Below are positions 8,057 to 59,167 of a stretch of DNA of 64,000 bases, one piece after another. How positions within the stretch are numbered: the stretch's first letter is position 1; the number at the start of each line of letters is the position of its first letter. A model generated the notes under the pieces. The model ran no database searches and was not told where the DNA came from. It worked only from the letters and a program-made list of their open reading frames with translations. A program made the position numbers and the translations under genes. Origin of the DNA: Shewanella sediminis HAW-EB3 (GTDB lineage: Bacteria; Pseudomonadota; Gammaproteobacteria; Enterobacterales; Shewanellaceae); contig NC_009831.1 in assembly GCF_000018025.1 (NCBI RefSeq), positions 1,736,001 through 1,800,000 on the forward strand, read 5' to 3'.

Positions 8057-8077
8057 TTCGAACCTCGAACCTATTTT
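8057..8077. repeat. Short heptanucleotide array (3 units) at an SDR stop codon
   Basis: Three 7-bp units, TTCGAAC CTCGAAC CTATTTT, in phase with a CTNN core. They overlap the stop codon of the reverse-strand SDR gene. It is the smallest member of the heptad array family described in the findings; taken alone it would not be convincing. Confidence 0.5.
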
Positions 8078-8838
8078 TTCCCTTCGGCTTTGGCCGCGAG
8101 GCGTTCGGCCTTTGTACGCCAGTGTCGGGTGTTGTAGACAAACTCGGGCAATAACTTAGTCAGCCAGGCGACTAAACGCCACCGTTTAGTCACATAGACT
8201 TTTCGTTTCGCTCCCTGCATAGCCTTAATTATCTGCCTTGCAACTTCATCCGGCGGAGAGAGCCATAAACGGCTTTGCTGCATTGCGGCTTTGTCGAGCA
8301 GGCCCAGCTGAATATCAGTGATTGTGATAGGTAACTTTAACCGCTGAGCATGCATGCTCAAACCTTCCAGATAATTAGTCGCAAAGGCTTTTGACGCATG
8401 ATAAGCCACACTTGGACCACCACGCAGGCCGGCAATCGAGTTTACAGCGGCAAGTTGGCCGTAACCTTGCTCTCTGAATAAGCGAAAAGCAGTATTGCAG
8501 ACGGCCGCAAATCCTTGCACATTAACTGTGATGATATCTTGCTCAGGTCCCCAGGGAAGCTGTGGATCATAGCTGTTCAGACCGGTATTAACTAAGACGA
8601 GGTGAGCCCCGCCTAATTGTTGCCACACCTCTTCAAGAGTTGAGATAATGGCTTGAGTCTCTACAATTTGTAATGGAAACAGATGAACTTGGGTTGGAAG
8701 ACTGTCTGCAAACTCTTGAAGTGAATCAGGATCTTGCGCTAGTAACGCAAGTTCGACACCTTGATCGGCGAGTTGTTTTGCGATTTCTCGGCTCAGGAGT
8801 GAGCTAGCACCTACAATTATGGCGGTTGCTTGTGTCAT
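8071..8838 (-). CDS. Short-chain dehydrogenase/reductase with atypical glycine motif
   Basis: 255 residues of classical SDR type. The active site is intact: NSIAGLRGGPSVAYHASK supplies Ser, Tyr and Lys. The cofactor loop is unusual: where most family members read TGASSGIG, this one reads VGASSLLSREIA, with the second and third Gly replaced. The NNAG position also differs (VNTGLN). The C-terminus is basic (TKAERLAAKAEGKK) and preceded by a hydrophobic stretch (WRLVAWLTKLLPEFVY), similar to membrane-associated SDRs of lipid metabolism. Substrate unknown. It converges on ompW; the upstream region holds the MITE at 8907. Confidence 0.85.
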   Translation of the reverse strand: MTQATAIIVGASSLLSREIAKQLADQGVELALLAQDPDSLQEFADSLPTQVHLFPLQIVETQAIISTLEEVWQQLGGAHLVLVNTGLNSYDPQLPWGPEQDIITVNVQGFAAVCNTAFRLFREQGYGQLAAVNSIAGLRGGPSVAYHASKAFATNYLEGLSMHAQRLKLPITITDIQLGLLDKAAMQQSRLWLSPPDEVARQIIKAMQGAKRKVYVTKRWRLVAWLTKLLPEFVYNTRHWRTKAERLAAKAEGKK

Positions 8839-8906
8839 TAGGCTATTCGGCTTGAAATTGGTAGCTTATGATAGGGAGATATGGGGTTCAGGACAAGAGT
8901 TATAGT

Positions 8907-9173
8907 TTATACCAATCGGTATAAAAGTGTGATCGCTCAGCGAGAATTTAGCGCTTCTGAGGCAAGGCAACGAGTGAAGAGCATAGTTATTCTACGTTTA
9001 AGCGCGTTAACACAGCATCGGATGCGCTAAAACTCGCCTTTCTGGAGTATTTTTGGCTTCCTACTTCTGCGTTGAATGACTTCAGAAGGGATCACCATTC
9101 CCTCATCCATTCGCCTTGAATTAGTTTGCCAAAAAAACTCTGAGTAGATCACTTTCTTATACTGATTGGTATT
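8907..9173. mobile_element. MITE-like element with 16-bp terminal inverted repeats
   Basis: The left end ATACCAATCGGTATAA (8909-8924) and right end TTATACTGATTGGTAT (9158-9173) are inverted repeats differing at one base. The ~267-bp element has no ORF. TATAG occurs just outside both ends (8901-8905 and 9174-9178), a possible target duplication. It matches the general look of non-autonomous elements common in Shewanella and related marine genera. It lies in the 469-bp gap between the divergent SDR and YbaY-type genes. Confidence 0.75.
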
Positions 9174-9325
9174 ATAGCTGTCCCGTCTTGAGATAAATTG
9201 GGGACCATAGCTAAATTACAAAAGTGACACTTGAAGAGATCAAAAGTGAAGAAATTAAAAGTAACGATTTTTGATATGGACATGTAGACATCCAGAAGTC
9301 TTGATGTATGATAAGGAGTAAGAAT

Positions 9326-9727
9326 ATGCCAAAGTGGTTTAAGCGAGTGTTACCTTTAGTCGTAGCAGTCGGTGCATTAGCCGGTTGTGCAACACCCAAT
9401 GCGGGCGTAGAGATCCAGGGTGAGGTTTGGTACAAGGAGCGAATCGCTCTGCCACAAGATGCTATGTTAACGGTGGAACTTAAGGATGTATCACTGATGG
9501 ATGCACCGGCAATTGTGCTTGCGCAGATAGAGCGAAGCGATGTCAGTACGCCAGCGCCTTTTCATTTTTTGATAAACAGAGATCAGTTTGAGTCGGGCCA
9601 TACCTATGCCATCGGTGCCAAAATCACCCTCAATGACAAGCTGTTATTCATCAATACTCAAGCATATAACATAGATTTAGGTTCCAGTGAGCCTATGTCA
9701 GTGTTGGTACAGAAGGTCGGTCGCTAA
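9326..9727 (+). CDS. YbaY-family lipoprotein (second paralogue)
   Basis: 133 residues from the chosen ATG, which follows AAGGAG by 7 nt; an in-frame ATG at 9308 lacks such a site. The signal peptide ends in the lipobox GALAGC. The mature part follows the same order as the protein at 5906: WYKERIALPQDAMLTVEL, then DAPAIVLAQIERSD, then PAPFHFLINRDQF, typical of YbaY-type beta-sandwich lipoproteins. Function unknown. metA lies 83 bp downstream on the same strand. Confidence 0.8.
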   Translation: MPKWFKRVLPLVVAVGALAGCATPNAGVEIQGEVWYKERIALPQDAMLTVELKDVSLMDAPAIVLAQIERSDVSTPAPFHFLINRDQFESGHTYAIGAKITLNDKLLFINTQAYNIDLGSSEPMSVLVQKVGR

Positions 9728-9810
9728 GCATTATTGATACAAACATGCTGCGCCGGTCCCTCTGTCTGACACATTTATTTTAATGATATAGATAATGGAA
9801 GAGGCGCGGT

Positions 9811-10755
9811 ATGCCGGTTAAAATTCCCGATGATCTGCCTGCAGCAGAGATCTTAGAGTCAGAAAATATCTTCGTTATGTCTGAGACTCGGGCTGCAAAT
9901 CAAGATATTCGTCCGATGAAAGTGCTAATTCTGAACTTGATGCCGAATAAAATTGAGACCGAAACGCAACTTTTGCGTTTATTGGGTAATACTCCCCTGC
10001 AGGTCGATGTGGATCTGCTCAGAATTCACGATAAAGAGTCCAGACACACCTCAATCGATCACATGAATAACTTTTATCGTGATTTCGAAGCCGTGCGTCA
10101 TAAAAACTATGATGGCTTGATAATCACCGGCGCACCCTTGGGTCAGGTTGAATTTGAAGATGTAAGCTATTGGGATCACATTCGTGAAATTATCGATTGG
10201 TCACAGCAACATGTCACCTCCGTGCTTTTTTTATGCTGGGCGGCCCACGCAGCTCTGTTTCATCTCTACGGACTGAACAGAAAGCTACTTAAGGAAAAAC
10301 GCTCCGGGGTATTTCTGCATAAGCGTACTCACCGACATGTTCCTTTGCTACGCGGATTCGATGATGAGTTCCTGGCCCCGCATTCACGTTTTGCTGAAAT
10401 GGATGTCCAACTTTTAAAAGCGCATCCGGCACTGCAGGTGTTAACTGAATCCGATGAGGCTGGCGCCTATATGGTGCTCAGTACGAATAATCGTAACCTG
10501 TTTGTTATGGGGCACCCGGAGTACCAGAAATCGACACTGAAAGATGAGTATTTCCGCGATCTGGGTGCAGGGTTACAACCTGAGATCCCGCAAAACTATT
10601 TCAGGCACAATGATCCGGGCCAAGACCCCGTTGCTCGCTGGTATGGTCATGGCAGCCTGTTGATCAGCAATTGGCTTAACTATTATGTTTACCAGTTAAC
10701 CCCCTATAACCTGGATGATATGAGTGGCATCACCCCTTGGGAAAATGAGGTTTAA
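9811..10755 (+). CDS. metA: Homoserine O-succinyltransferase
   Basis: 314 residues, full length. MetA transfers a succinyl group from succinyl-CoA to homoserine, the first committed step of methionine synthesis, in the cytoplasm. The nucleophile Cys142 lies in [16 protein letters not shown], at the same number as in E. coli. GHPEY supplies the His and Glu of the triad, and [11 protein letters not shown] is also conserved. Members of this family may use acetyl- or succinyl-CoA; which is used cannot be read with certainty here. I see no riboswitch upstream. It ends before the heptad array at 10771. Confidence 0.95.
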
Positions 10756-10770
10756 TCGGGTGATGAGCTT

Positions 10771-10833
10771 CGAGGTTCTAGGCACGAGGTTCTAGATCCT
10801 CGCCCCTCGCTTCTAAAACCTCGTACCTCGAAG
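10771..10833. repeat. Nine-unit heptanucleotide array with CTAG/CTCG cores
   Basis: From 10771, every seventh base begins one of CGAG, CTAG, CGAG, CTAG, CTCG, CTCG, CTAA, CTCG, CTCG. The period is kept over 63 bp although the other three bases of each unit vary. Because CGAG is the complement of CTCG, the array also folds back on itself (ACGAGGTT against AACCTCGT) and could act as a terminator for metA, which ends 15 nt earlier. Confidence 0.75.
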
Positions 10834-10941
10834 CTTTCTCAGCATTATATTCTCTCCTTAACACCTGAATACCGAATCTGTAAATCCTGAGTGACATCTC
10901 CACCTCATACTTTGGTAGAAGTTTGACCAGCTAACACTTGC

Positions 10942-10957
10942 TTTACGTTCGCGTAAA
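10942..10957. promoter_or_regulatory. LiuR-like palindromic operator of the ivd operon
   Basis: TTTACG-TTCG-CGTAAA is a perfect 6-bp inverted repeat about 106 bp upstream of the thiolase start. It resembles, from memory, the TTTACG/CGTAAA-type sites of the MerR-family regulator LiuR, which controls branched-chain amino acid catabolism in Shewanella and relatives. Assignment to LiuR rests on motif and operon content only. Confidence 0.6.
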
Positions 10958-10973
10958 CGTCACAGTGATATTA

Positions 10974-10989
10974 ATTGAGCAAGATCACA
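10974..10989. promoter_or_regulatory. Possible CRP-type site upstream of the ivd operon
   Basis: ATTGAGCAAGATCACA has a perfect right half (TCACA) and a 3/5 left half of the CRP consensus TGTGA-N6-TCACA. CRP control of a catabolic operon would be sensible. The match is imperfect and also partly FNR-like. Confidence 0.35.
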
Positions 10990-11062
10990 CTTACTATTTG
11001 TTTTTAGATGTTGGTGATAACAGGTTATTTACCGACAGGGCTAATCCATTACCGGAGTAGAT

Positions 11063-12253
11063 ATGAGTACAGAGCAGTCAAACCCAGATATCGTAATCGT
11101 TGCCGCTAAACGTACCCCTATGGGTGGATTTCAAGGGGCATTGTCGAGCGTGGCTTCACCGAAGTTGGCCGCGACGGCCATCAAGGGGCTAATGGATCAG
11201 ACCGGATTGCCTGAAGAGCAGCTCGATGAAGTGTTGATGGGGTGTGTACTGCCTGCGGGACTGGGTCAAGCTCCGGCTCGTCAAGCGACATTAGGCGCTG
11301 GACTCCCTCTGTCTGTTGGTGCGACAACGGTGAATAAAGTCTGTGGCTCGGGTATGAAGACCGTTATGTTGGCTCATGATCTGATTAAAGCTGGCAGTGC
11401 CTCAGTCGTTGTTGCCGGTGGCATGGAGAGTATGAGCCAGGCGCCATACCTACTCGATAAAGCCCGTGGTGGAATGCGTATGGGGCACGGTAAGGTGATG
11501 GACCATATGTTCCTTGATGGCCTCGAAGATGCCTATACCGGTGGTGCCATGGGCACATTTGCTCAAGAGACGGCCGATGATTTCAACTTGACCCGAGAGC
11601 AGATGGATACATTTGCGCTGAGCTCACTCGAAAAAGCCAATGCCGCGATTGAAAGCGGTGCCTTTAAAGAGGAGATAACCCCGGTGACGGTTTCCAGTCG
11701 TCGCGGCGATACCCTTGTCGATACCGATGAGCAGCCGGGCAATGCACGTCCGGATAAGATCCCAAGCTTACGCCCGGCCTTTGCTAAAGATGGCACCATC
11801 ACGGCGGCGAACTCAAGCTCTATCTCAGATGGCGCAGCTGCCTTGATGTTGATGACGGCTGAGCAGGCTAATTCAATGGGATTACCTGTGCTCGCCACCA
11901 TCAAGGGGCATACCACTCATGCACAGGAGCCATCGATGTTTACGACAGCCCCAGTCGGTGCCATGAATAAGCTGCTCGATAAGGTGAACTGGAGCAAGGA
12001 TGATGTGGATCTGTTTGAGATCAACGAAGCCTTTGCCATGGTGACCATGCTGGCTATCTCTGAGCTATCGCTCGATGAATCGAAGGTAAACGTCAACGGT
12101 GGCGCGTGTGCGCTTGGTCATCCTATCGGCTGCTCCGGCGCGCGATTATTAGTGACGTTAATCCATGCCCTTAAGGCGCGTGGCCTTAAGCGAGGCGTCG
12201 CCTCCTTGTGTATCGGTGGTGGCGAGGCGACGGCGATGGCCATCGAAGTCTAG
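11063..12253 (+). CDS. ivdA: Acetyl-CoA acetyltransferase of the ivd operon
   Basis: A 396-residue thiolase. The N-terminal active-site segment is VNKVCGSGMKTVM, whose Cys carries the acyl group. The C-terminal signature GGACALGHPIGCSGAR carries the second Cys and the His of GHP. It cleaves acetoacetyl-CoA or 2-methylacetoacetyl-CoA at the end of leucine/isoleucine breakdown. It is the first of seven genes on one strand with matching pathway roles. The name ivdA follows the operon naming I recall for Shewanella. The upstream LiuR-like palindrome suggests induction by branched-chain acyl intermediates. Confidence 0.9.
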   Translation: MSTEQSNPDIVIVAAKRTPMGGFQGALSSVASPKLAATAIKGLMDQTGLPEEQLDEVLMGCVLPAGLGQAPARQATLGAGLPLSVGATTVNKVCGSGMKTVMLAHDLIKAGSASVVVAGGMESMSQAPYLLDKARGGMRMGHGKVMDHMFLDGLEDAYTGGAMGTFAQETADDFNLTREQMDTFALSSLEKANAAIESGAFKEEITPVTVSSRRGDTLVDTDEQPGNARPDKIPSLRPAFAKDGTITAANSSSISDGAAALMLMTAEQANSMGLPVLATIKGHTTHAQEPSMFTTAPVGAMNKLLDKVNWSKDDVDLFEINEAFAMVTMLAISELSLDESKVNVNGGACALGHPIGCSGARLLVTLIHALKARGLKRGVASLCIGGGEATAMAIEV

Positions 12254-12424
12254 TTCTATCTATTTATTCTATCGCGGGTAACTGTCGCAAGAAAATAAGA
12301 GATGTGAGTTAAGAAGTAGTCACTTACATGTAGCAATCAACAAGACAAGATGACCGACTTTTGTGTGTAAAAACAATAATAATGCCGCAAAATTCGGTTC
12401 GAACCGATCTTAATGGGAAGCAAT

Positions 12425-13930
12425 ATGACAACTCAAGTTAAGCATTATATCGACGGCCAATTTATTCTGGGCCAGGGAGAGCAACAGATTTCGGTAACGA
12501 ACCCTGCAAACAACGAGCAGATAGCGGTGATCAATAGTGCTACCGTCGAAGAGGTGGAAACCGCCGTTGCCAGTGCCAAGGTAGCATTTAAAAGCTGGAA
12601 AGAGGTGCCTGTATCTGAACGTGCACGTGTGATGTTTAACTATCAGCATCTTCTTAAAGCGCACCATGATGAGCTTGCGACGATCTTAGCCCAGGAGACG
12701 GGCAAGACGTTTGATGATGCCAAAGGTGATGTGTGGCGCGGTATAGAAGTGGCTGAGCATGCTTGTAATATAGCGACCCTAATGATGGGAGAAACCGTCG
12801 AGAACGTCGCTCGCAGTATCGATACCTACAGCTATACCCAGCCTCTTGGTGTTTGCGCCGGTATTACGCCGTTTAACTTCCCTGCCATGATCCCGTTATG
12901 GATGTTCCCCCTCGCCATTGCATGCGGTAACACCTTCGTACTTAAGCCATCGGAACAAGATCCAATGACGCCACAACGTCTTGTCGAACTGTTCGAAGAG
13001 GCGGGTGCACCTAAGGGCGTACTGCAACTGGTTCATGGTGATAAGGTTGCCGTGGATGTGCTTCTTAATCATAAAGATATCAAAGCCATCTCATTTGTGG
13101 GATCTGTCGGTGTGGGCCAATACATCTATAAGACGGGTACCGATAATTTAAAGCGCGTCCAGGCCTTTGCCGGGGCAAAAAACCACTGCGTCATCATGCC
13201 AGATGCCAATAAGCAGCAAGTGATAAATAACTTGGTCGGCGCCTCTGTCGGTGCGGCGGGTCAACGCTGTATGGCGTTGTCGGTTGCCGTGTTTGTTGGC
13301 GCTGCTAAAGAGTGGGTTCCTGAGTTGAAAGCGGCGCTGGCTAAGGTTAAGCCCGGGCTTTGGGACGATAAAAATGCGGGTTATGGACCCGTGATAAGCC
13401 CCGCGGCTAAGGCGCGCGTGCTATCTCTCATCGAGCAGGGGAAAAACGAGGGCGCCGAGTGTCTGCTCGATGGCTCAGAGTTTACCGTATCCGGCTATGA
13501 GACAGGTAACTGGATTGGCCCGACTATGTTCACCAAGGTGACTACCGAGATGAGCATCTATAAAGAGGAGATCTTCGGTCCTGTGCTGTGTTGCATGGAA
13601 GCCGATTCATTAGAGGAAGCTATCGACATCGTCAACGATAGCCCTTACGGCAACGGCACCTCTATCTTTACCGCCAGCGGTGCGGCTGCCCGTAAGTACC
13701 AACACGAAATCGAGGTGGGACAGGTGGGTATTAATGTCCCCATTCCGGTACCTCTGCCATTTTTCTCTTTCACCGGATGGAAGGGAAGCTTCTATGGCGA
13801 CCAACACGCTTATGGTAAGCAAGCCGTTCGCTTCTACACCGAAACGAAAACCATCACCTCTCGTTGGTTCGAGTCGCAGATCTCGGAAGCCGAACACGCA
13901 GCGCCAAATATGACTATCGCGCTTAAATAA
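12425..13930 (+). CDS. mmsA: Methylmalonate-semialdehyde dehydrogenase (CoA-acylating)
   Basis: 501 residues of the aldehyde dehydrogenase superfamily. The catalytic Cys282 sits in [12 protein letters not shown], typical of Mms[26 protein letters not shown] and [19 protein letters not shown] are further family marks. The enzyme converts methylmalonate semialdehyde to propionyl-CoA using NAD+ and CoA, the last step of valine degradation. ATG at 12425 is chosen because GGGAAG precedes it closely; an in-frame ATG 12 nt upstream has no such site. Called ivdB in the Shewanella operon nomenclature I recall. Confidence 0.93.
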
Positions 13931-13950
13931 GCCGGTATAGAAAGTAACCC

Positions 13951-13981
13951 GCTGTCTATGAGGTTCAGCCCCATAGGCAGC
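13951..13981 (+). other. Hairpin between mmsA and the acyl-CoA dehydrogenase gene
   Basis: An imperfect 13-bp stem (GCTGTCTATGAGG with CCCCATAGGCAGC; one wobble, one mismatch) and a 5-nt loop, with no T run after it. It lies in the 217-bp intra-operon gap and could mark an mRNA processing or attenuation point rather than a terminator. Confidence 0.5.
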
Positions 13982-14147
13982 AGGATTTAGGCCCGTTTTA
14001 TTCACATAATTAACGCAAGGCACAATAAAAAAAGAGCAGTTCGTCGCCGCTATGAACGACAACCAGCTGAACGATTTAACTTACTATTGGTTCATCGACC
14101 AGCTCTACAGCTAGCTCAATAAAGAATGTGCCGAAGGAGACCTACAG

Positions 14148-15446: not shown

Positions 15447-16220
15447 ATGACAGGAATAATTGAACGTATTGAAGGCCATACCGCCATTCTCACCATGAGT
15501 AATCCGCCGGCCAATACCTGGACAGGCGAAAGCCTGCAAGCCCTTAAAGAAAAGGTGCTTGAGCTTAACGAAAACAGGGATATCTATGCTTTGGTTATCA
15601 CCGGGGAGGGGGAGAAGTTCTTCTCTGCCGGCGCCGACCTTAAGCTCTTTGCCGACGGCGATAAAGGCGTTGCCGCTTCGATGTCTAAACATTTCGGTGA
15701 AGCGTTCGAAGCCTTGAGCCAATTTCGTGGTGTTTCGATTGCGGCGATAAATGGTTATGCCATGGGGGGCGGACTGGAGGTGGCGCTGGCTTGTGATATT
15801 CGTATTGCAGAGGTTCAGGCTGTGATGGCACTGCCGGAAGCGTCGGTGGGATTACTGCCGTGCGCCGGTGGCACTCAAAACTTAGTTGCATTGGTTGGCG
15901 AAGGCTGGGCAAAGCGCATGATTTTATGCGGTGAGCGACTGAAAGCCGATAAGGCCGAGTCTCTTGGCTTGGTTGAAGAGGTGGTTGAAACTGGTGAGTC
16001 TCTGGATGCGGCGATTGCACTGGCCGCAAGAGTCGCCAATCAGAGCCCAAGCAGTGTAGCCGTGTGTAAACAACTTATACAGGCTGGCCGAACGATGCCC
16101 CGAAGTTTGGCATTACCCCTGGAGCGAGAGCTGTTTGTCGGTTTGTTCGATACCGAAGATCAGGCTGAAGGCGTCAATGCCTTCCTGGATAAGCGCAAAG
16201 CCAACTGGAAAAATTGCTGA
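15447..16220 (+). CDS. ivdD: Enoyl-CoA hydratase of the ivd operon
   Basis: 257 residues of the crotonase fold from the chosen ATG, which follows GGAAG by 6 nt; the frame stays open upstream to 15381 but without a better site. ITGEGEKFFSAGADLKLF gives the first oxyanion-hole segment, and YAMGGGLEVALACDIRIAE the second. MALPEASVGLLPCAGGTQNLV carries the Glu expected for hydration. It would hydrate methacrylyl-CoA or tiglyl-CoA in valine/isoleucine breakdown. Its TGA overlaps the next ATG by one base, so translation is probably coupled. Confidence 0.88.
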   Translation: MTGIIERIEGHTAILTMSNPPANTWTGESLQALKEKVLELNENRDIYALVITGEGEKFFSAGADLKLFADGDKGVAASMSKHFGEAFEALSQFRGVSIAAINGYAMGGGLEVALACDIRIAEVQAVMALPEASVGLLPCAGGTQNLVALVGEGWAKRMILCGERLKADKAESLGLVEEVVETGESLDAAIALAARVANQSPSSVAVCKQLIQAGRTMPRSLALPLERELFVGLFDTEDQAEGVNAFLDKRKANWKNC

Positions 16221-17380
16221 TGACAACTCATAAAAATGCAGATGCTGAATTGGTTGCCCAGAGTGATAACAGCGTGGTGTTTCAGACCTTAGGCACCGCA
16301 TCGGGTAAGCAGATAGGTGTCGTGACTCTGAATGTTGAAAAGGCGCTCAACTCGCTTAATCTCACCATGGTTAACGCCATGACCAAACAGTTGCTACAGT
16401 GGCAGAATGATGACGGAATCGCCATGGTGATGCTCGATGGTGCGGGCGAGAAGGCCTTTTGCGCCGGCGGAGATGTCAGGGCTATCTATCATGCATCGAT
16501 CGAGTCGCCCGGTGAGGTGACCGAGCAGGCCGAGACATTTTTTGAGCGAGAATATCGTCTCGATTATCTACTGCATACCTTAGGCAAGCCGGTCATGGTG
16601 TGGGGTGACGGGATTGTCATGGGGGGCGGTCTCGGCCTGATGGCAGGGGCGAGTCACAGGGTTTTGACTGAGCGTTCACGTATCGCCATGCCTGAGGTGA
16701 CCATCGGCCTGTATCCAGATGTCGGTGGTAGCTATTTTCTCAACCGAATGCCGGGTAAAACCGGGCTGTTTCTCGGATTAACCGCCTACAATATGAATGC
16801 CGGTGATGCAAAATATGTCGGGGTGGGTAATCACTATCTCAATAGTGATAGTAAGGAGCCACTACTCGATCACTTAGCCACCCTGAGTTGGGGTGATGAT
16901 TGTAAGTTAAATCATCGCTTGTTAACTGAGCAGCTCAATGCCATGGAGCAAGAGGCCGCTGTGCCATTGCCCCAAGGGCAGTTAGAGGCGAAGCAAACAG
17001 AGATAGATGAGTTGATGACAGGCTCTCTGACTGAGATCGTCGAGCGGGTTTCAAGTGTCGATTGTCATGACTCCTGGCTCGAGCGTCCGCTGAAGACGCT
17101 GCTCTCGGGTAGCCCGCTCAGTTGGCATCTCATCTATCGTCAAGCCCTGCTTGGCACATCGCTCAGTCTGGCAGAGGTATTTAAATTTGAGCTAGGTTGC
17201 AGTGTGAATTGCTGCGCTATCGGGGATTTCAGTGAAGGGGTCAGGGCGCTGTTGATTGACAAGGACAGACAGCCTAAATGGCGTTATCGAGAGGTTTCGG
17301 CAGTACCAAAAGACTTGATAGAGCAATTAATCACGTCTCCATGGGCAGATACGGAGCATCCATTAAAGAGCATGGTTTAA
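16220..17380 (+). CDS. ivdE: 3-hydroxyisobutyryl-CoA hydrolase
   Basis: 386 residues from the ATG overlapping the preceding TGA. The protein has the crotonase fold with the extended C-terminus typical of 3-hydroxyisobutyryl-CoA hydrolases (usual length 350-390). Key segments are LDGAGEKAFCAGGDVRAIY, GDGIVMGGGLGLMAGASHRV and MPEVTIGLYPDVGGSYFLNR, where Glu and Asp match the catalytic pair of this subfamily. It releases free 3-hydroxyisobutyrate, the substrate of the next gene's enzyme, so the pair forms consecutive valine-degradation steps. Confidence 0.9.
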   Translation: MTTHKNADAELVAQSDNSVVFQTLGTASGKQIGVVTLNVEKALNSLNLTMVNAMTKQLLQWQNDDGIAMVMLDGAGEKAFCAGGDVRAIYHASIESPGEVTEQAETFFEREYRLDYLLHTLGKPVMVWGDGIVMGGGLGLMAGASHRVLTERSRIAMPEVTIGLYPDVGGSYFLNRMPGKTGLFLGLTAYNMNAGDAKYVGVGNHYLNSDSKEPLLDHLATLSWGDDCKLNHRLLTEQLNAMEQEAAVPLPQGQLEAKQTEIDELMTGSLTEIVERVSSVDCHDSWLERPLKTLLSGSPLSWHLIYRQALLGTSLSLAEVFKFELGCSVNCCAIGDFSEGVRALLIDKDRQPKWRYREVSAVPKDLIEQLITSPWADTEHPLKSMV

Positions 17381-17385
17381 AACAA

Positions 17386-17460
17386 GTGTCTTAAAAGGAA
17401 TGTTTTAAAAAGAGTGCTTTAAAAGGATTGATTTACAGAGGGTGTCTTAAAAGGAATGTT
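17386..17460 (+). repeat. Repeats after ivdE: a 19-mer duplicated with a degenerate middle copy
   Basis: GTGTCTTAAAAGGAATGTT occurs identically at 17386-17404 and 17442-17460, starting 5 nt after the ivdE stop. Between them is a related GTGCTTTAAAAGGATTGAT. The block fills much of the 172-bp gap before mmsB and ends about 90 bp before its start. Confidence 0.85.
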
Positions 17461-18479: not shown

Positions 18480-18483
18480 TTCG

Positions 18484-22075: not shown

Positions 22076-22077
22076 TT

Positions 22078-22145
22078 AGCAGTTAAGAGCCTTCAGCGGT
22101 TAGGAGCCCTCAGCAGTTAAGAGTCCTCAGCAGTTAAGAGCCATT
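22078..22145 (+). repeat. 17-bp tandem repeat x4 after the radical SAM gene
   Basis: Four contiguous 17-bp copies (22078, 22095, 22112, 22129) of AGCAGTTAAGAGCCCTC with one to three changes each, starting 2 nt after the stop codon and ending before the terminator. Confidence 0.9.
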
Positions 22146-29555: not shown

Positions 29556-29734
29556 GGCCATAAATGTTCCATTCATTTATTGGCATTTCCACCATCCTTG
29601 GCAGTCAGAACATTTATGTCTGTTTGGCAGGGATGCATATAAACAGACGTTATGGCCGGAACACTCTCATAAATAGAAAGGTATATTTCCCAAGGATGGG
29701 TAGAAATATACGTTATGTCTGGAACATTTATGCC
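29556..29734. mobile_element. Composite palindromic element with terminal inverted repeats
   Basis: The left end GGCCATAAATGTTCC (29556-29570) and right end GGAACATTTATGCC (29721-29734) are inverted repeats. Inside are two hairpins: TCTGTTT / AAACAGA (29619-29625, 29641-29647) and TATATTTC / GAAATATA (29682-29689, 29703-29710). Each is followed by CGTTATG-x-CYGGAACA and has a GGATG-type loop. There is no ORF. It looks like a compound REP/MITE element lying between ybiT and nupC. Confidence 0.65.
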
Positions 29735-29768
29735 TAGGGCCTAGGGCCTAGAATCTAGATCCTAGACC
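29734..29768. repeat. Five-unit CTAG heptanucleotide array
   Basis: CTAG begins at 29734, 29741, 29748, 29755 and 29762, exactly 7 bp apart; the three bases that follow vary (GGC, GGC, AAT, ATC, ACC). The array abuts the right end of the palindromic element and lies 41 bp past the stop of the reverse-strand nupC gene. Confidence 0.85.
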
Positions 29769-31289: not shown

Positions 31290-31417
31290 CAAAAATCGGA
31301 AAAGATTAAAAGCAATTAATGTTGTTAAATTACAGTCTGGCTGGATTTTAGGCTGGTTGGTGGTTTTTTATGGGGTTTAATACTGAGTTTAGTGTGTTTG
31401 TTGAAATATTATTACTT

Positions 31418-31466
31418 GGCTAGAGGCTAGAGGCTAGAGGCTAGAGGCTAGAGGCTAGAGGCTAGA
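31418..31466. repeat. Seven-unit heptanucleotide array (GGCTAGA)7
   Basis: Seven perfect contiguous copies of GGCTAGA over 49 bp. It lies in a 574-bp gap between the nupC leader and the end of the aminopeptidase gene. The only other structure nearby is a short hairpin, TGGACT / AGTCCA, at 31515-31532. Confidence 0.98.
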
Positions 31467-31555
31467 AGTGATGTTGATATGACCCCTTAAAAGTGGACAC
31501 CTTATATAAGTGCTTTGGACTGCCACTAGTCCACTTTACCTAGAGGAGAAAAGTT

Positions 31556-52311: not shown

Positions 52312-52316
52312 AAACA

Positions 52317-52369: not shown

Positions 52370-52390
52370 TCGCCACCCAATGGCATAAAT

Positions 52391-52409
52391 AGAGCGGCCA
52401 AGCCGCTCT
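52391..52409 (+). other. Intra-operon hairpin before pstB
   Basis: A perfect stem AGAGCGGC / GCCGCTCT with a CAA loop, 22 nt before the pstB start and without a T run. It could protect mRNA 3' ends or attenuate between the permease and ATPase genes. Confidence 0.6.
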
Positions 52410-52430
52410 GTTAAAGTGATAGGATATAAA

Positions 52431-53249
52431 ATGATTTCCATAGATAAGTCCGCTATGAACACAAATTCAGTCGATCTGAACAATTTGAGCCAGGAAGAGA
52501 CAGCCCTGGAGATCCGCAACCTGGATCTAAAATACGGTGATAAACAGGCACTTTTCGATGTATCGATGAAGATCCCCGAAAAACAGGTTACCGCATTTAT
52601 CGGGCCAAGTGGTTGTGGTAAATCCACACTGCTGCGCTGCATCAACCGAATGAATGATCTGGTTGATAACTGCCATATTGGCGGGGAAATTTTGCTCAAC
52701 GGGCAAAATATCTACGACAAACAAGTCGATGTCGCCTCTCTGCGCAGAAATGTCGGTATGGTGTTCCAGCGTCCAAATCCTTTTCCTAAATCAATTTATG
52801 AAAACGTCGTTTACGGCTTGCGTCTGCAAGGGATAAATAATCGACGCGAACTGGATGATGCTGCCGAACAATCTTTGCGTGGCGCCGCCATTTGGGATGA
52901 AGTGAAAGACAGGTTACATGACAATGCGTTTGGCCTTTCCGGTGGTCAGCAGCAGCGTTTGGTGATTGCCCGTGCGATTGCCATCGAGCCAGAGGTTTTA
53001 CTTCTCGATGAGCCAACATCGGCCCTGGATCCTATTTCGACACTGACGATTGAAGAGTTGATCACCGAGCTTAAATCTAAATACACAGTCGTGATCGTGA
53101 CCCATAACATGCAACAGGCGGCGCGCGTCTCGGATCAAACTGCCTTTATGTATATGGGGGAGCTGGTTGAATATGCCGATACTAACACCATATTTACGAC
53201 GCCAAGAAAACGTAAAACAGAAGATTACATCACGGGTAGGTACGGGTAA
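52431..53249 (+). CDS. pstB: Phosphate ABC transporter ATP-binding protein
   Basis: 272 residues from the ATG preceded by AGGA; a GTG 15 nt upstream is less likely. Walker A is GPSGCGKST, the Q loop [15 protein letters not shown] is specific for PstB, the signature is LSGGQQQRL, Walker B is [11 protein letters not shown] and the switch His is in VTHNMQQ. It energises phosphate import by the PstSCAB complex on the cytoplasmic face. It is flanked by two copies of a short repeat. Confidence 0.96.
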
Positions 53250-53282
53250 TAGAACTGATCAGTTTTCAGACCCGACTCTTGT

Positions 53283-53333
53283 GTACCCAGACGACCTCTG
53301 AAATGAGAATTTTGAAGTGGCTTGGGTATATAT
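53283..53333. repeat. Short palindrome-ended repeat, copy 2 (pstB-phoU gap)
   Basis: A 51-bp relative of the unit at 52317, starting GTACCCAG and ending CTTGGGTATATA. The two copies bracket pstB. It ends 35 bp before the phoU start. Confidence 0.75.
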
Positions 53334-53368
53334 GGGCATTAACAGAATTGGAAAAGGTTTAAATTGCA

Positions 53369-54079
53369 ATGGAAAATATGAATTTAAGTAAGCACATCTC
53401 TGGTCAGTTTAATGCCGAGCTGGATGATATCCGTAATCGTGTCTTAGCTATGGGCGGTTTAGTCGAACGTCAACTGGAACAGTCTCTGGATGCCCTAAGT
53501 ACATTGGACTCTGAGTTGGCGCAGAAAGTTATCGATGGCGATCATAAGGTCAATGGTATGGAAGTGGCCATAGATGAAGAGTGTACCCGTATCATTGCCA
53601 AGCGTCAGCCTGCTGCGAGCGATTTACGTTTAGTACTTGCGATATCGAAAACGATTACCGATCTGGAGCGCATCGGTGATGCTTGCGTGAAGATAGCTAA
53701 GGCTGCAATGGATAAACGCTCTAAAAACCAGCAGCCACTACTGGTAAGCATCGAGAACATGGGACGTCACGCGACGCGTATGCTCAATGCCACTTTAGAT
53801 GCTCTGGCGCGTATGGACGCCGAAGTGGCACTCGAGCTGCATAAAGAAGACATTAAGTTAGATAAAGAGTATGAAGGGATCATTCGCCAATTAATGACCT
53901 ATATGATGGCCGATCCACGTTCAATTCCCGAAGTGTTAGATGTGCTTTGGGCTGCAAGGGCTGTTGAGCGAGTGGGTGACCGTTGCCAGAATATCTGTGA
54001 GTACATCATCTATTACGTGAAAGGGAAAGATGTGCGCCATGTCTCCTATGAAGAGATGGAGAAAGACCTTAATTTTTAA
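53369..54079 (+). CDS. phoU: Phosphate signalling regulator PhoU
   Basis: 236 residues of two PhoU repeats, each a three-helix bundle with acidic metal motifs: [19 protein letters not shown] sequence near residue 60, [22 protein letters not shown] near 90-110, and [22 protein letters not shown] near 200. PhoU links transporter activity to the PhoR kinase and restrains the Pho response when phosphate is plentiful. It closes the pst operon. phoB and phoR are not in the window. Confidence 0.95.
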
Positions 54080-54516
54080 TTTGCTTAAGAATAGTGAAAC
54101 CTAAAAATAAAATCTTTTTAAAACAAGCGGCTACGGAGTTGCTTGTTTGTTTTTATAACGTCAGCTCAGATTTAAGGCTGAATTTAATGTATAATATACT
54201 TATCTTTGTGTATAGACAGATTGTATTCAATAGTGCCGGACTGATTAAATTTATTGGATTTGGTCGCTATTTAATGGGATTTGTTGTTTTTAGCTTTTCG
54301 GTTAACGATGAGTTTAAAAGCATTGGCGTAGAAGCCTGGCTTAAAAGAACCTTAGCGTAAAACCTGAGTATATAGCCTTTTTGGCGTTCACAAATTGTGA
54401 TTTCCGGCGCAGTTACAGTTATGCAAAACTGTATGATGCCTCACCGTCTAATGTTGGCCGGGATCTCTTGTAGTTGAGTGAGCTGTATCAACTATGTGCT
54501 AATCTTCGAGAGTTTT
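54080..54516. other. Intergenic region between phoU and the BCCT gene
   Basis: About 437 bp. It contains the pst operon terminator (54121-54155). A GTG-started open frame overlapping that terminator has no convincing ribosome site and is not called. Promoter elements for the BCCT gene are expected but not identified. Confidence 0.5.
54121..54155 (+). terminator. Terminator of the pst operon
   Basis: Stem AAACAAGC / GCTTGTTT with a 12-nt loop, followed by GTTTTT, 41 nt after the phoU stop. Confidence 0.85.
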
Positions 54517-56484
54517 ATGTCGATCAAAACCAGTATTAATCCTCCTGTTTTTTTCTCTTCCGTTTTTATCATAGCGTTAATGGTGTTTGTCGGGGCTATC
54601 TGGCCACAGCAGGCACAAATTGTATTTAAGTCAGCCCAGTCTTGGTTCGAACTTAAGGCCGGTTGGCTTTACATCTTAGGTGTTGCCATCTTCCTTATCT
54701 TTATCATCTTTGTGATGGTGAGTCGTTTCGGTGATATTAAGTTAGGACCGGATCACGCCGAACCCGATTACAGCTACAAAAGCTGGATAGCCATGCTGTT
54801 TTCAGCCGGCATGGGCATCGGCTTGATGTTCTTTGGTGTTGCCGAACCTGTTATGCACTATTTAGCTCCACCGGATGCGACTCCTGAGACGATTCAGGCC
54901 GCTAAAGATGCAATGAAGATCACTTTCTTCCATTGGGGGATCCATGCCTGGGCCATCTATGCGGTTGTCGCACTTAGTCTGGCTTATTTCTCCTATCGGC
55001 ATAAGCTACCTCTACTGCCACGAAGTGCCCTTTATCCTCTGATTGGTGAACGTATCTATGGGCCTATAGGGCATGCTGTCGATACATTTGCCGTTATCGG
55101 AACCATGTTTGGTGTGGCCACATCTCTGGGTTTTGGTGTGTTACAAGTTAACTCAGGGCTAAACTATCTGCTCGGTGTGCCGGTAAATGCTTACGTCCAA
55201 GTTGGGCTTATTATCGCGATTTCATTGATTGCGACACTCTCAGTTTTCTCCGGGTTGGATAAAGGAGTTAAACGACTCAGTGAATTGAACTTAGGTTTAG
55301 CAATATTACTACTAATTTTTGTGCTGATCTTTGGACCTACCGTTGAGCTACTACAGGCCTTTGTACAAAATACCGGAGGATATTTGAGTGATATTGTCGG
55401 TAAAACTTTTAACTTGTATGCCTACGAGCAGAAAAATGATTGGATTGGGGGTTGGACCTTGCTCTACTGGGGCTGGTGGATCTCATGGTCCCCATTTGTA
55501 GGAACCTTTATTGCCAGAGTTTCCCGTGGCCGTACCATCAGAGAGTTTTTGGTGGGTGTGTTATTCGTACCTACTGCGTTTACCTTCTTGTGGATGACAG
55601 TATTTGGTAACACGGCGATAGATGCGATCATGGACCATGGTGCAAGCTATCTGACGGAAGCTGTTTCAAGTGATGTCTCCGTTGCCTTGTTTGTCTTTTT
55701 TGAGCATATGCCATTTTCCACTCTGCTATCGACGATAGCCTTGTGTCTGGTTATCACCTTCTTTGTTACTTCGTCCGATTCGGGGTCACTGGTTATCGAT
55801 AACCTAACATCGGGTGGCGATCATGAAGCACCTGTATGGCAGCGTGTCTTTTGGGCGCTACTTCAGGGCGTTGTCGCTTCTGTTTTATTGCTTGCCGGCG
55901 GCCTGCAAGCACTACAAACGGTAGCGATTGCCAGTGCATTGCCTTTTTTGTTAGTCATGCTCTTGATGTGTTTTGGTTTGTACAAGGCACTCCAGGATGA
56001 CTGGCTTAAGATCAACAGCGTGCAGCTTCATAATACGAGTGTACAGTTCACCAAAACTAACGTGAATTGGGAAGACCATATCGATGTGTTAGTGTCTCAT
56101 CCGAGTAAAGAAGATGCACAAAATTTTCTCGACAATGTGGCCACGCCGGCGCTGACTAAGGTGTGTAAGAGCTTTATCAGTAAAGAGATCCCTGCAGAGT
56201 TGTTGCATTTTGAAAATCGTATTCGTTTCGTTATCGCCAACGAGGAATATGATGACTTTGCCTATGGTCTACGGGTACGTGCATTTACCATCATCAACCC
56301 AATCGAGAGTGAACTCGATGAAGGTGAAACCGATTATTATCGGGTCGAGGTGTTCCTTGAGCATGGCGGTCAACATTATGATGTGATGGGCTTCACTCAA
56401 GATCAGATCTTGGCAGATGTGGTGACCCAGTATGAAAAGTATCTGCATTACCTGCACCTATCCAGTTCAGAATACTTAGGTTAA
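54517..56484 (+). CDS. BCCT-family betaine/choline/carnitine transporter
   Basis: 655 residues from the ATG closely preceded by GAGAG; the frame extends 39 nt upstream without a better start. Twelve helices are expected. Family signatures are MLFSAGMGIGLMFFGVAEP, FFHWGIHAWAIYA and the aromatic box WGWWISWSPFVGTFIARVSRG. The C-terminal ~130 residues are cytoplasmic (residues ~520-655), longer than in many members, and could sense osmotic or ionic state. It imports quaternary ammonium compounds driven by Na+ or H+; the actual substrate is not readable. Confidence 0.92.
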   Translation: MSIKTSINPPVFFSSVFIIALMVFVGAIWPQQAQIVFKSAQSWFELKAGWLYILGVAIFLIFIIFVMVSRFGDIKLGPDHAEPDYSYKSWIAMLFSAGMGIGLMFFGVAEPVMHYLAPPDATPETIQAAKDAMKITFFHWGIHAWAIYAVVALSLAYFSYRHKLPLLPRSALYPLIGERIYGPIGHAVDTFAVIGTMFGVATSLGFGVLQVNSGLNYLLGVPVNAYVQVGLIIAISLIATLSVFSGLDKGVKRLSELNLGLAILLLIFVLIFGPTVELLQAFVQNTGGYLSDIVGKTFNLYAYEQKNDWIGGWTLLYWGWWISWSPFVGTFIARVSRGRTIREFLVGVLFVPTAFTFLWMTVFGNTAIDAIMDHGASYLTEAVSSDVSVALFVFFEHMPFSTLLSTIALCLVITFFVTSSDSGSLVIDNLTSGGDHEAPVWQRVFWALLQGVVASVLLLAGGLQALQTVAIASALPFLLVMLLMCFGLYKALQDDWLKINSVQLHNTSVQFTKTNVNWEDHIDVLVSHPSKEDAQNFLDNVATPALTKVCKSFISKEIPAELLHFENRIRFVIANEEYDDFAYGLRVRAFTIINPIESELDEGETDYYRVEVFLEHGGQHYDVMGFTQDQILADVVTQYEKYLHYLHLSSSEYLG

Positions 56485-56540
56485 GAGCTAGGTTAATCGA
56501 GACAGGGTAAATATTTTGTCTCAAATACCCGGTTAAAATC

Positions 56541-56578
56541 AAACAGCCCTGATGGTATCATTAGGGCTGTTTTTTTAT
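56541..56578 (+). terminator. Terminator of the BCCT gene
   Basis: Long near-perfect stem AAACAGCCCT-ATG / CAT-AGGGCTGTTT followed by T7. Confidence 0.93.
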
Positions 56579-56670
56579 ATTCACTCATTTAACGATTAAT
56601 CATCGTGTCAGGAGCCTCTGCGGGGTTCGTTTAACAATGGGTCTGAATAAGCGTTTAAACATAATTCGAG

Positions 56671-57042
56671 ATGAAAGATATGTCAGCAAACCAAGGCCCA
56701 AGTAAGTTAGATAAAGTATTGGCAGAAGCCAGAGAGTATAAAGCGAAACGAGAAACGGGTTATCGAGAGCAAGCGCTTAAGCTCTACCCCTGGGTCTGCG
56801 GTCGTTGCACGCGAGAGTTCAATAATGCCAACTTACGTGAGCTCACTGTGCATCACAGAGATCATAATCATGATAATAACCCATCTGATGGGTCTAACTG
56901 GGAGTTATTGTGCCTATATTGCCACGATAATGAACACTCTAAATTTGAAGAGTTGATCCAATACGGCGCGACTAAAGAAGCTAAGGTCGAAGCGGCAACC
57001 TACAATCCTTTTGCAGACCTCAAAGGCATGATGAAAAAGTAA
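56671..57042 (+). CDS. yajD: HNH nuclease-like protein YajD
   Basis: 123 residues. The HNH core is YPWVCGRCTREFNNANLRELTVHH...NPSDGSNWELLCLYCHDNEHSK: two CxxC pairs for zinc and the His-Asn-His set. The segment from YREQALKLYPWVCGRC to the C-terminal YNPFADLKGMMKK follows E. coli YajD almost throughout, so orthology is likely. No activity has been assigned to YajD that I know of. A second ATG 9 nt downstream is an alternative start. Confidence 0.92.
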   Translation: MKDMSANQGPSKLDKVLAEAREYKAKRETGYREQALKLYPWVCGRCTREFNNANLRELTVHHRDHNHDNNPSDGSNWELLCLYCHDNEHSKFEELIQYGATKEAKVEAATYNPFADLKGMMKK

Positions 57043-57125
57043 AAGTTAGCTTGTAAAATACCTGAAAGGGTTTCTGGCTTTGAGAGGAAGAGATATGCGG
57101 TATATCTCTATCTCTTTAGCAGGAG

Positions 57126-57374
57126 TTACCCTGTTACTAATGCCTCTTCCTTCAGGCGAGCAGCCACCTCCTGCCATCTATCCTTGCTTATTTTTTCACT
57201 GTTTAGCCCTTTGCCTAACTCAGCTTTACGGCCGGGGATCTTCTTCCAGACCTGGGCTTTAAAGGCATCATCGGCTTTACTCCAGCCGACGATTTCATCG
57301 ATATTTCGATAACAGCCCATGCAGATATCATCTTCGTTTACACCGCACTTCGCCACACAAGGAGATTGAATCAT
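57126..57374 (-). CDS. DUF1289 family small Cys-rich protein
   Basis: 82 residues. The N-terminus is the DUF1289 motif, QSPCVAKCGVNEDDICMGC followed by YRNIDEIVGW, with four Cys arranged as CxxxC...CxxC, probably binding a metal ion. A basic helical tail follows. Function unknown. It is convergent with yajD. Confidence 0.88.
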   Translation of the reverse strand: MIQSPCVAKCGVNEDDICMGCYRNIDEIVGWSKADDAFKAQVWKKIPGRKAELGKGLNSEKISKDRWQEVAARLKEEALVTG

Positions 57375-57674
57375 GTCATTTCCATTTATAATTTAGAGTC
57401 ATATTCTTATTGGTGGTGATTTTAATGTTCTTCGTCATAGTATTCAAGGTGAATTGGTGTTAGGTGGTTGGGGTGGCTGAATTGTTTGTTATGTGAGTCA
57501 TCATTCTTAAGCGAAGTAAAAGCGGGCTAGATTTTTACTAAATATTACCTTAATGAATAACCAATAGTGGGATCATTTATAGGTGATAAGCGGTTAATAA
57601 GTTAAACTTACAAACGAATTAATTTACTTTTTATACTAATTTTTCAATGGATTGGAAAAATAATTGGGGGCTTT

Positions 57675-58853
57675 ATGAAAGTGTTATTACGCTTAACGGT
57701 GATGGCTATGCTTGGTCTGCTTACATCAGCATGTTCATTATTGGAAGTTAAGCTAGAAAGTGGTATCGAACCACTGCCTCAAGAACAATTGAATATGCGG
57801 GTATTCAGTCGCGATTTTAGCAGTTCTTTTTATAGCAAGGTCGAGCTCACGGCCGATGAGATCGCATCCTTTGAAGACGCCGGTGAGCAATATATTTATC
57901 TCAAATCCAATGCATTGATGTGGAAGATCTATTCTGAACAGGCGCTGCAGAGGACTATTTTTCAAACCTCACCTGTCGCAGCAATGGTTGATACCTGGGC
58001 ATTTACGGCGCAGATGACCGCCTTCTATGAGACTGGTGCCGGTCGGTCTCTTTTTGGTTTACAGCAAACACTCGCTATTGAGGCAAGCAGGGCATTACAG
58101 TCACAGTTTGAATCTACAGTTAAAGGCTTCCTAACGTCGACTGAATTTCAGAAAAATCGTGATTTTATCGAACAATACGTCGTTGTTAATCCGCTGACCG
58201 AGATGACCTTTAGCCGGAAGTCGGCATTTAATGATTGGTTAAAATTCAGGGAGATAAACGAATTTGAAGCGGTGACAACCTTCGGTTCAGTGCCGGAGGT
58301 GATGAGTGATATCTCTGATCGTATGGCGATGATCTCTGAGCAGATGCCAAAAATTCTTGGCTGGAAGGCTGAACTCTATGCATTGCACTCTAATATCAAT
58401 GCCGAGGAGATACAGAAGACGTTGAATCATATCAGCGTCACATCGGCCAAATTCCAGGAACTTATGGCACAAAGCCCCGAGATGATGCAGACATTGGCTG
58501 TCGATATGCGTCGTGAATTAACTCCCTTATTGCAGCAGCTCAGTGATTCAACTGATAGTAAATTAGCCCAGTTATCTACAGAGCGACAAGCGTTGGAGTT
58601 AATGGTTAAGAGTGAACGTATTGCTTTAGAAGATATGGTCGCAAGAGAGCGTGTTGCTGCTGCCGCCAATTTAGATGAACTTTCTAAGCATACTGTCGAG
58701 GTCGTATTTCAAGAGCTGACAAAAACACTCAAGAGTTTGATCTTATACTTTGTGCTTTTCCTCCTAGTGGTGTTCTTTGCCCCCTTAGGTTTGGGTGTCT
58801 GGCTAGGTAAGCGTATGGAAGTTAAGAAGGCGCAAAAAGCACATGAGCTATAA
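57675..58853 (+). CDS. Lipoprotein with coiled coil and C-terminal membrane helix, unknown
   Basis: 392 residues. The signal peptide ends in LLTSAC (Cys20) with Ser at +2, which would send the lipid anchor to the outer membrane. A helical region follows; residues ~290-345 form a coiled coil with repeats such as ERQALELMVKSERIALEDMV. A strong hydrophobic helix (FVLFLLVVFFAPLGLGVWLG, about 358-378) and the basic tail KRMEVKKAQKAHEL suggest insertion in the inner membrane with a cytoplasmic end. No family recognised. A tandem repeat begins exactly at its stop codon. Confidence 0.7.
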   Translation: MKVLLRLTVMAMLGLLTSACSLLEVKLESGIEPLPQEQLNMRVFSRDFSSSFYSKVELTADEIASFEDAGEQYIYLKSNALMWKIYSEQALQRTIFQTSPVAAMVDTWAFTAQMTAFYETGAGRSLFGLQQTLAIEASRALQSQFESTVKGFLTSTEFQKNRDFIEQYVVVNPLTEMTFSRKSAFNDWLKFREINEFEAVTTFGSVPEVMSDISDRMAMISEQMPKILGWKAELYALHSNINAEEIQKTLNHISVTSAKFQELMAQSPEMMQTLAVDMRRELTPLLQQLSDSTDSKLAQLSTERQALELMVKSERIALEDMVARERVAAAANLDELSKHTVEVVFQELTKTLKSLILYFVLFLLVVFFAPLGLGVWLGKRMEVKKAQKAHEL

Positions 58854-58878
58854 GTTTTAAGTTTTAAGTTTTAAGTTT
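58851..58878 (+). repeat. Heptanucleotide array (TAAGTTT)4 at a stop codon
   Basis: Four perfect contiguous copies of TAAGTTT; the TAA of the first copy is the stop codon of the preceding gene. Confidence 0.97.
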
Positions 58879-59020
58879 AGAACGAGCCTGAACGCTGTCA
58901 TCCATAAACTCTTTATTTTAAAGCGGGTGACGGCGGTTGAGTTAACAGCTATTGATTTATATTCTTCGTGACTCGTGATTTTTTCCGAGTATGCATCTGG
59001 GTACTTCTGCTTTATAATCC

Positions 59021-59167
59021 TACCTAGTACCTAGTACCTAGTACCTAGTACCTAGTACCTAGTACCTAGTACCTAGTACCTAGTACCTAGTACCTAGTAC
59101 CTAGTACCTAGTACCTAGTACCTAGTACCTAGTACCTAGTACCTAGTACCTAGTACCTAGTACCTAG
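59021..59167. repeat. Twenty-one-unit heptanucleotide array (TACCTAG)21
   Basis: 147 bp of perfect TACCTAG repeats, the largest array in the window. It lies 49 bp before the methyltransferase start and fills most of the 362-bp gap after the preceding lipoprotein gene. Each unit contains CTAG. Perfection over 21 copies implies recent expansion and likely length variation between isolates. Confidence 0.99.

Follow-up and report, generated by a model that had tools for sequence, protein, structure and literature searches.

Dispersed intergenic heptamer tandem repeats with a recurrent CTAG core in Shewanella sediminis and related genomes

A stretch of 64,000 nucleotides from Shewanella sediminis HAW-EB3 (bases 1736001–1800000 of a genome of 5,517,674 bp on one contig; hereafter the window) contains several dispersed tandem arrays of seven-letter DNA units. 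Our analyses point to a family of intergenic tandem repeats with heptamer units that is probably driven by slippage, tolerated in the 3' flanks of genes and mostly without function. In this lineage three spacer bases vary around a core that stays the tetramer CTAG (in a looser description, Y-N-A-G and its complement), and in the S. sediminis genome the step is 7 bp. The arrays sit between genes, prefer convergent neighbours and in many cases start at a stop codon. They differ between sister species, with seeds of one or two units in one sister and many units in another. Genomes of the relatives are denoted by G numbers and loci by L numbers.

Results

Excess of period 7

When the window was matched against itself, period 7 gave four exact runs of 12 or more positions, and the remaining periods between 2 and 12 gave none. 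A larger sample, made up of the window and 59 stretches of 20 kb, covered 1.244 Mb or 22.5% of the S. sediminis genome. Exact runs with 13 or more matches numbered 20 in this sample at period 7, spread over 17 places, against 3 at period 6, 4 each at periods 8 and 9, 3 at period 12 and none at periods 5, 10 and 11. The excess of period 7 over periods 6, 8 and 9 on which a first-pass annotation of the window had staked its proposal is thus borne out. A looser scan of 864 kb returned 21 period-7 regions at a strict threshold, all of them intergenic (21/21), compared with 6 regions at period 6 (1 intergenic), 6 at period 9 (3 intergenic) and 7 at period 12 (3 intergenic). Each period from 4 to 12 other than 7 gave at most 3 intergenic regions; period 14, a multiple of 7, gave 16. 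Period 13 stood above its neighbouring periods, with 9 intergenic regions. All such assignments rest on gene calls from a simple hexamer method that we devised ourselves (709 genes in the 864 kb, 943 in the 1.244 Mb).

Along the chromosome, period-7 regions were sparse far from position 0 (3 in 320 kb vs 34 in 924 kb, P 0.007, with bins chosen afterwards), and their density did not change monotonically with distance from it (the nearest 280 kb held 6; Spearman P 0.38).

Location relative to genes

Twenty-nine of 30 period-7 regions in the 864 kb were intergenic and one lay inside a gene; a 31st consisted of masked bases and was dropped. Among the 28 regions flanked on both sides, 13 had convergent, 13 co-directional and 2 divergent neighbours; one of the convergent regions is located within a predicted gene, and chance may account for a few regions with low scores. 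Measured against a background of intergenic regions of at least 60 bp (86 convergent, 283 co-directional, 108 divergent), the arrays are enriched between convergent genes (P 0.0007). Phase-variation contingency repeats, which switch a gene, lie in coding or promoter DNA. The small numbers of regions within a gene (1/30) and between divergent genes (2/28) speak against such a role, although 13/28 lie between co-directional genes.

Pairs of cores were also counted in gene flanks. Behind genes, sense CGAG/TAAG-type pairs amounted to 81 at spacing 7, versus 27–49 at spacings 4–6 and 8–13 and 69 at spacing 14, and complementary-type pairs at spacing 7 were fewer than the sense ones (52 vs 81, P 0.015). 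Before genes, CGAG/TAAG-type pairs showed no excess, with 42 at spacing 7 and 27–56 at other spacings. Pairs of the CGAG, TAAG or CTAG type were most frequent in the first 20 nt past stop codons, which held 61 of the 177 pairs found within 140 nt. The array flanks had no defined end in common.

Core and spacers

CTAG is scarce in the window, in line with the rarity that the first-pass annotation had assumed for gammaproteobacterial genomes in general: 87 copies were observed where a Markov model expects 130, and 35 of the 87 lie inside the heptamer arrays. The CTAG triple, i.e., CTAG-N3-CTAG-N3-CTAG with its step of 7, occurs at 199 places in the S. sediminis genome, versus none at spacing 8 and one at spacing 6, and the reversed pattern of this triple was not found in the genome. 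Among the triple places listed for S. sediminis, none fell between 1831822 and 2778305. CTAG also leads among the units of exact arrays, being present at 9 of the 17 places, and the lists of the 12 most frequent words at periods 6, 8 and 9 do not include it. In degenerate triples, defined as a tetramer recurring three times at step 7 with spacers that differ in two or three bases, it is the commonest tetramer both in S. sediminis (7/23) and in the congener G028 (8/23). Other cores occur as well, namely CGAG/CTCG, CGGG, TAAG/CTTA and TTAG, for which Y-N-A/G-G is a looser description. Except in ACGGGGA (L220), none of the listed units contains a run of four G or C. The genome sample thus backs the first-pass description of the arrays as dispersed, intergenic, close to gene ends and enriched in CTAG.

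CTAG doublets at spacing 7 numbered 12 in S. sediminis, all at separate places, against 1.8 expected. Doublets at spacings 5, 8 and 12 (12, 19 and 11) fell to 3, 2 and 3 when repeated copies of tRNA-Glu and copies that we take to be rRNA were left out, and we discarded these excesses as mostly rRNA and tRNA copies. Repeated tRNA genes are also seen at L177, where 11712–13541 and 15598–16587 hold tandem series of ten tRNA-Glu genes, spaced at 216 and 178 bp, and of nine tRNA-Val genes.

Spacers recur between arrays. In a list drawn from part of the 199 triple places, with repeat rows of uniform arrays omitted, the spacer AAC/GTT was present in 12 of 22 CTAG arrays, a number reached in none of 5000 random draws, and CTAG spacers were common to several loci in both orientations. 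The first-pass annotation had proposed that one mechanism repeatedly seeds the heptamers, which our results support in part. The reuse of AAC/GTT fits a common process; a dedicated seeding machine gains no support, since the flanks share no defined end and neither Y1_Tnp nor SbcD nor Vsr explains by its presence how the arrays are distributed. Furthermore, a self-complementary tetramer was present in 16 of the 20 exact runs in S. sediminis (15 of 17 places), versus 9.7 of 20 after shuffling and with 0 of 500 shuffles as high, although these runs are not independent of each other.

Spread across relatives and step length

CTAG triples at step 7 were found at 4956 places in 96 of 129 Shewanella genomes, ranging from 0 to 327 per genome, compared with 220 at step 8 (32 of 129 genomes) and 64 at step 6 (35 of 129). 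In the order as a whole, 91 of 394 genomes (30 of the 394 are Shewanella) and 23 of 114 genera carry such triples, from which it follows that they are not private to one species.

The exact period of 7 described in the first-pass annotation holds for S. sediminis, whereas arrays in G014, G015 and G028 mix units of 7 and 8 bp. In L280 (G014), CTAGTTC and CTAGATTC alternate irregularly, as do CTAGCTC and CTAGTTTC in L283 (G015). L281 (G028) has one flank in common with L280 and carries the spacers GAAT and GAA; L282 (G028) and L284 (G015) consist of 8-bp units throughout. In these congeners CTAG is the constant element and the step is 7 or 8 bp. A fixed 7-nt polymerase footprint is hence insufficient as a full account of the arrays. 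With two unit lengths around a constant CTAG, L280 and L283 resemble a two-letter record. In an uncultured Shewanella, a 12-bp tandem array, CAACGGCTAGTT, with CTAG in every unit, occupies L050:11202–11388.

Loss of SbcD and Vsr were considered as causes and rejected. SbcD matches were present in 129 of 129 genomes; they fell into two score groups, with a median of 4 CTAG triples in 42 genomes and of 23 in the other 87, a difference not separable from kinship. Seven of the 129 genomes had a Vsr match, which exceeded the cut-off in 6 of them, and S. sediminis was not among the seven.

Heptamer sites in the window and their orthologues

Sites in the window were called by direct reading and with Tandem Repeats Finder. 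Of the six strict 7-bp sites named in the first-pass annotation, five are real period-7 arrays, and the sixth, at 8057–8077, barely exceeds two exact units. Exact arrays, or sites holding exact runs, are those starting at 29732, 31418, 58851 and 59021, and the site at 10771–10833 is degenerate. Direct reading agreed with the earlier remark that spacers are uniform in the youngest arrays and different between arrays.

The longest array, TACCTAG at 59021–59169, has 21.3 exact units and ends about 50 bp upstream of a methyltransferase-like open reading frame (ORF) at 59216–60514. Its orthologous locus contains no array in G016 and G091 and five CTCGTAC/CTCGTAG units in G117. The same intergenic stretch contains four exact TAAGTTT units at 58851–58878 (plus strand), which have neither CTAG nor CTCG and whose first TAA is the stop codon of the ORF at 57675–58853; G016 has about one such unit and G117 two. 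A seed, TCGTGAC-TCGTGA, lies in this stretch at 58966–58978 (plus strand), with 1.9 units in S. sediminis, 2 in G016 and 12 in G091. The orthologue comparison around 58851–59169 covered 18 of 30 loci.

At 31418–31466 seven GGCTAGA units are all exact, and both the array and about 120 bp of adjoining DNA are absent from G016 and G117. A similar word, TTGATATGACCCC..AAAGTGGACAC, follows two unrelated CTAG arrays, namely this one (window 31470–31501) and L281 of G028 in its right flank; it resembles the end of an insertion sequence. The CTAG heptads at 29732–29768 comprise five units with four kinds of spacer between convergent genes, and the locus has CTAG heptads with other spacers in G117 and other DNA in G016.

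The degenerate heptads at 10764–10840 form one inverted repeat and not a simple array. They lie 3' of the homoserine O-succinyltransferase gene metA (9811–10755), which is 98% identical to S. canadensis metA. The left arm is of the CGAG/CTAG and the right arm of the CTCG/CTAA type, and the nine units at 10771–10833 have the cores CGAG, CTAG, CGAG, CTAG, CTCG, CTCG, CTAA, CTCG and CTCG in this order. Heptads are present here in S. sediminis, G016 and G117, the last with about ten AGCTATA and four CTTAAAA units, and they are kept with different units in L031, L033 and L034. The site at 8057–8077 (minus strand), weak when taken alone, contains two to three TCGAACC heptads, TAGGTTCGAGGTTCGA on the minus strand, with 2.1 exact units. 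It includes the stop codon (8073–8071) of a short-chain dehydrogenase gene at 8071–8838 (minus strand). G016 has about one unit at this locus and G117 four to five with other spacers.

For the six window arrays, position and length are thus not conserved between S. sediminis and the sister species G016 and G117, as the first-pass annotation had anticipated for orthologous loci. The differing seeds and unit counts at orthologous places show that arrays build up from seeds and that each lineage replaces them, at places that stay favoured. Further tandem repeats in the window have longer units (5788–5825, 13 bp; 17372–17460, 28 bp; 22078–22142, 17 bp). An Rfam search of the window gave no match.

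Discussion

Origin of the arrays

Slipped-strand mispairing or unequal exchange between adjacent heptads during replication would make the arrays, and their inverted arms might arise by fold-back copying. Past stop codons, where they are probably least harmful, arrays could persist, turning over quickly and mostly serving no function. We may speculate that CTAG anchors the realignment by self-pairing and a deformable step. In simulations CTAG is a highly polymorphic tetranucleotide, according to an excerpt of the respective report (PMC6511876), and such polymorphism might ease strand realignment.

Several results weigh against this slippage account. Plain slippage of arbitrary seeds does not predict that 9 of the 17 places with exact arrays have a single core in common, that the AAC/GTT spacer is reused or that CTAG stays constant while steps of 7 and 8 bp are mixed. 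Nor are pairs of CTAG at spacing 7 restricted to 3' flanks, as 67 lay behind and 47 before genes, although these flanks overlap where genes are co-directional. In 33 of 129 Shewanella genomes no CTAG triple occurs, for which we found no reason, and in 74 named Shewanella metA loci CTAG made up 0 of 26 degenerate triples (TTTT being the commonest with 5). Self-complementary tetramers were not significantly enriched in relatives, with 9/14 vs 6.9 in the 74 named Shewanella loci and 2/4 vs 2.2 in G028.

A mini-hairpin model, in which a self-complementary tetramer and a 3-nt loop add up to 7, thus found no significance in the named relatives or in G028, and we keep it only as a guess. Several of the palindromes merely follow from the YNAG core, and neither GATC nor CATG occurs in the exact-run lists. 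Loci from other families were partly chosen at known CTAG places, and L222 was kept out of the blind sample for that reason. In this set CTAG accounted for 0 of 21 degenerate triples, and its palindrome count of 19/23 was set aside as biased by locus choice. A column-clustering test gave no effect (258.6 vs 282 ± 29) on regions that were untrimmed and included flanks.

An alternative is an activity that recognises CTAG, such as a nicking or restriction enzyme or a transposase-like or binding protein, which would make or keep the arrays; the spacer would then passively link the cores in units of 7 or 8 bp. We regard this as rather unlikely. It agrees with a CTAG that stays constant while spacers and even the step length vary, with the genus counts of triples at steps 7, 8 and 6 (4956, 220 and 64) and with spacers that several loci have in common in either orientation. 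Arrays of CTCG, CGAG and TAAG alongside the CTAG ones do not agree with it, and no candidate gene emerged, Vsr being confined to the 7 genomes named above. That such a process operates in Shewanella and related families, placing CTAG every 7 (or 8) bp around passive spacers while units move between loci and invert, seems unlikely to us. If true, the chromosome, in which CTAG is otherwise scarce, would have its main CTAG clusters in the arrays, and a dedicated protein would make or read them. A reading in which heptads belong to or are spread by the system of repetitive extragenic palindromes (REPs) and REP-associated tyrosine transposases (RAYTs) appears very improbable. S. sediminis does contain a REP family, GTAGGAGCGGCTTTAGCCGCGA, at 115 places within two mismatches (e.g., L182–L211), and one Y1_Tnp gene. 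At 31 REP sites (exact matches, 30 loci), CGAG-type heptad pairs occurred in the 100 bp before 10 and in the 100 bp after 6, compared with 35 of the 523 flanks 3' of genes (for the count before REPs, P 6e-5). Genomes with a Y1_Tnp match have a median of 19.5 CTAG triples versus 7 in those without (P 0.004, uncorrected for kinship). However, of the 55 genomes that lack a Y1_Tnp match, 35 contain CTAG triples, among the regions listed only one has a REP beside its array, and the arrays lack the GTAG hairpin. The Y1_Tnp model moreover takes in transposases of the IS200/IS605 type, which counts against a REP/RAYT origin. Many of the REP places listed crowd at 4.42–4.63 Mb, the site of the sole Y1_Tnp match (4472072–4472401).

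The position of the arrays behind genes might also mean that they descend from functional 3'-end hairpins, i.e., terminators or mRNA stabilisers, which later slipped into arrays. We folded 13 stretches as RNA, each against 60 dinucleotide shuffles, and z-scores lay clearly below the shuffles for L160 (−5.0), the metA stretch (−3.8), L033 (−3.2), L150 (−3.0) and L031 (−2.9), with five further stretches at −2.5, −2.4, −2.4, −1.5 and −0.5. In 7 of the 12 CTAG doublets, bases adjoining both cores can also pair (P 0.014), and one doublet (L214) looks like an intrinsic terminator, with a stem followed by a T-run. Both long uniform arrays tested nevertheless fold worse than their shuffles (59015–59190, +4.7; 31415–31470, +2.2), as does the one-armed L154 (+1.7). 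Sites resembling intrinsic terminators, i.e., a GC-rich hairpin with a T-run, were equally common in array flanks (4/23) and elsewhere (102/567), and we hold a hairpin origin to be quite unlikely. Scarcely credible, finally, is a role as all-frame stop signals, in which the 7-bp step would put TAG or TAA into all three frames. CTAG and TTAA do give stops on both strands, and several arrays start at stop codons. Yet sense CTACGAG and CTACGGG arrays behind genes (L142, L168) are free of stops in every frame, and a stop-codon function was rejected on account of this class.

The favoured length of 7 among longer bacterial tandem repeats has been a question at least since a 2007 survey. Shewanella offers arrays that are numerous, young and unequal between species, and their constant core separates the core from the step length. 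The question can hence be addressed by cross-species association and laboratory evolution. In addition, the arrays could serve as fast strain markers.

Comparison with known heptamer repeats

What appears to be new here is that CTAG stays constant as a core and the spacers are exchangeable; seven-letter arrays as such are already known. Among the matches listed for Shewanella together with heptamer, simple-repeat or CTAG terms, and in wider searches, we found no published description of such Shewanella arrays, subscription papers being outside the scope. Tandem heptanucleotide repeats of cyanobacteria go by the name of short tandemly repeated repetitive (STRR) sequences; they too are tandem heptamers and are likened to the present arrays by description only.

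The first-pass annotation knew of no described system in the genus that seeds such heptamers; that nothing of the kind had been described at all is not supported by excerpts of two reports, which cover a bacterial heptamer excess (PMC4679880) and the Xanthomonas repeat GGGAATC (PMC4692102). According to the first, heptamers outnumber every other class of long simple repeats in the majority of bacterial genomes, for which polymerase slippage was suggested (Mrazek, Guo and Shah 2007, retold in PMC4679880). The Shewanella arrays resemble these long repeats in their excess of unit length 7. In contrast to that account as retold, a fixed 7-nt polymerase footprint explains neither the constant CTAG nor the mixture of 7- and 8-bp units. 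The excerpt also describes TAACTGA direct repeats in Beggiatoaceae, cyanobacteria and Bacteroidetes, with 169 sets in one draft genome (PMC4679880). They share with the Shewanella arrays the many dispersed heptamer sets per genome. As described there, however, TAACTGA is one fixed unit located mostly just upstream of start codons, whereas the Shewanella units vary and are commonest behind stop codons, and TAACTGA was not found among 61 listed exact period-7 runs.

REPs are found in the S. sediminis genome together with heptads and often adjacent to them, and both are extragenic and hairpin-forming. In the excerpted description, REP or GTAG palindromes are extragenic hairpins of 20–40 bp that occur singly, many of them tagged with GTAG (PMC3733652). 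The Shewanella arrays differ from these in being 7-bp tandem repeats without such a palindrome.

The closest likeness is to the Xanthomonas type, within the excerpted account. GGGAATC or (GGGANTN)n repeats are dispersed, mostly intergenic 7-nt repeats that lie on average 28 nt behind the next 5' ORF; they have conserved and variable positions and inverted pairs, and long arrays are found at different genes in two sister species (PMC4692102). The same source mentions the Nostoc heptamer GGGGA(T/C)T and three tandem heptanucleotides in Calothrix (PMC4692102). With the Xanthomonas type as portrayed there, the Shewanella arrays share tandem 7-nt units that exceed other unit lengths, an intergenic position behind ORFs, a partly conserved unit, inverted pairs, and a position and length that sister species do not conserve. 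They depart from it in that their core is CTAG and not a G-tract, with no quadruplex, that the spacer is exchangeable, and that 8-bp units are mixed in with the 7-bp ones in some species.

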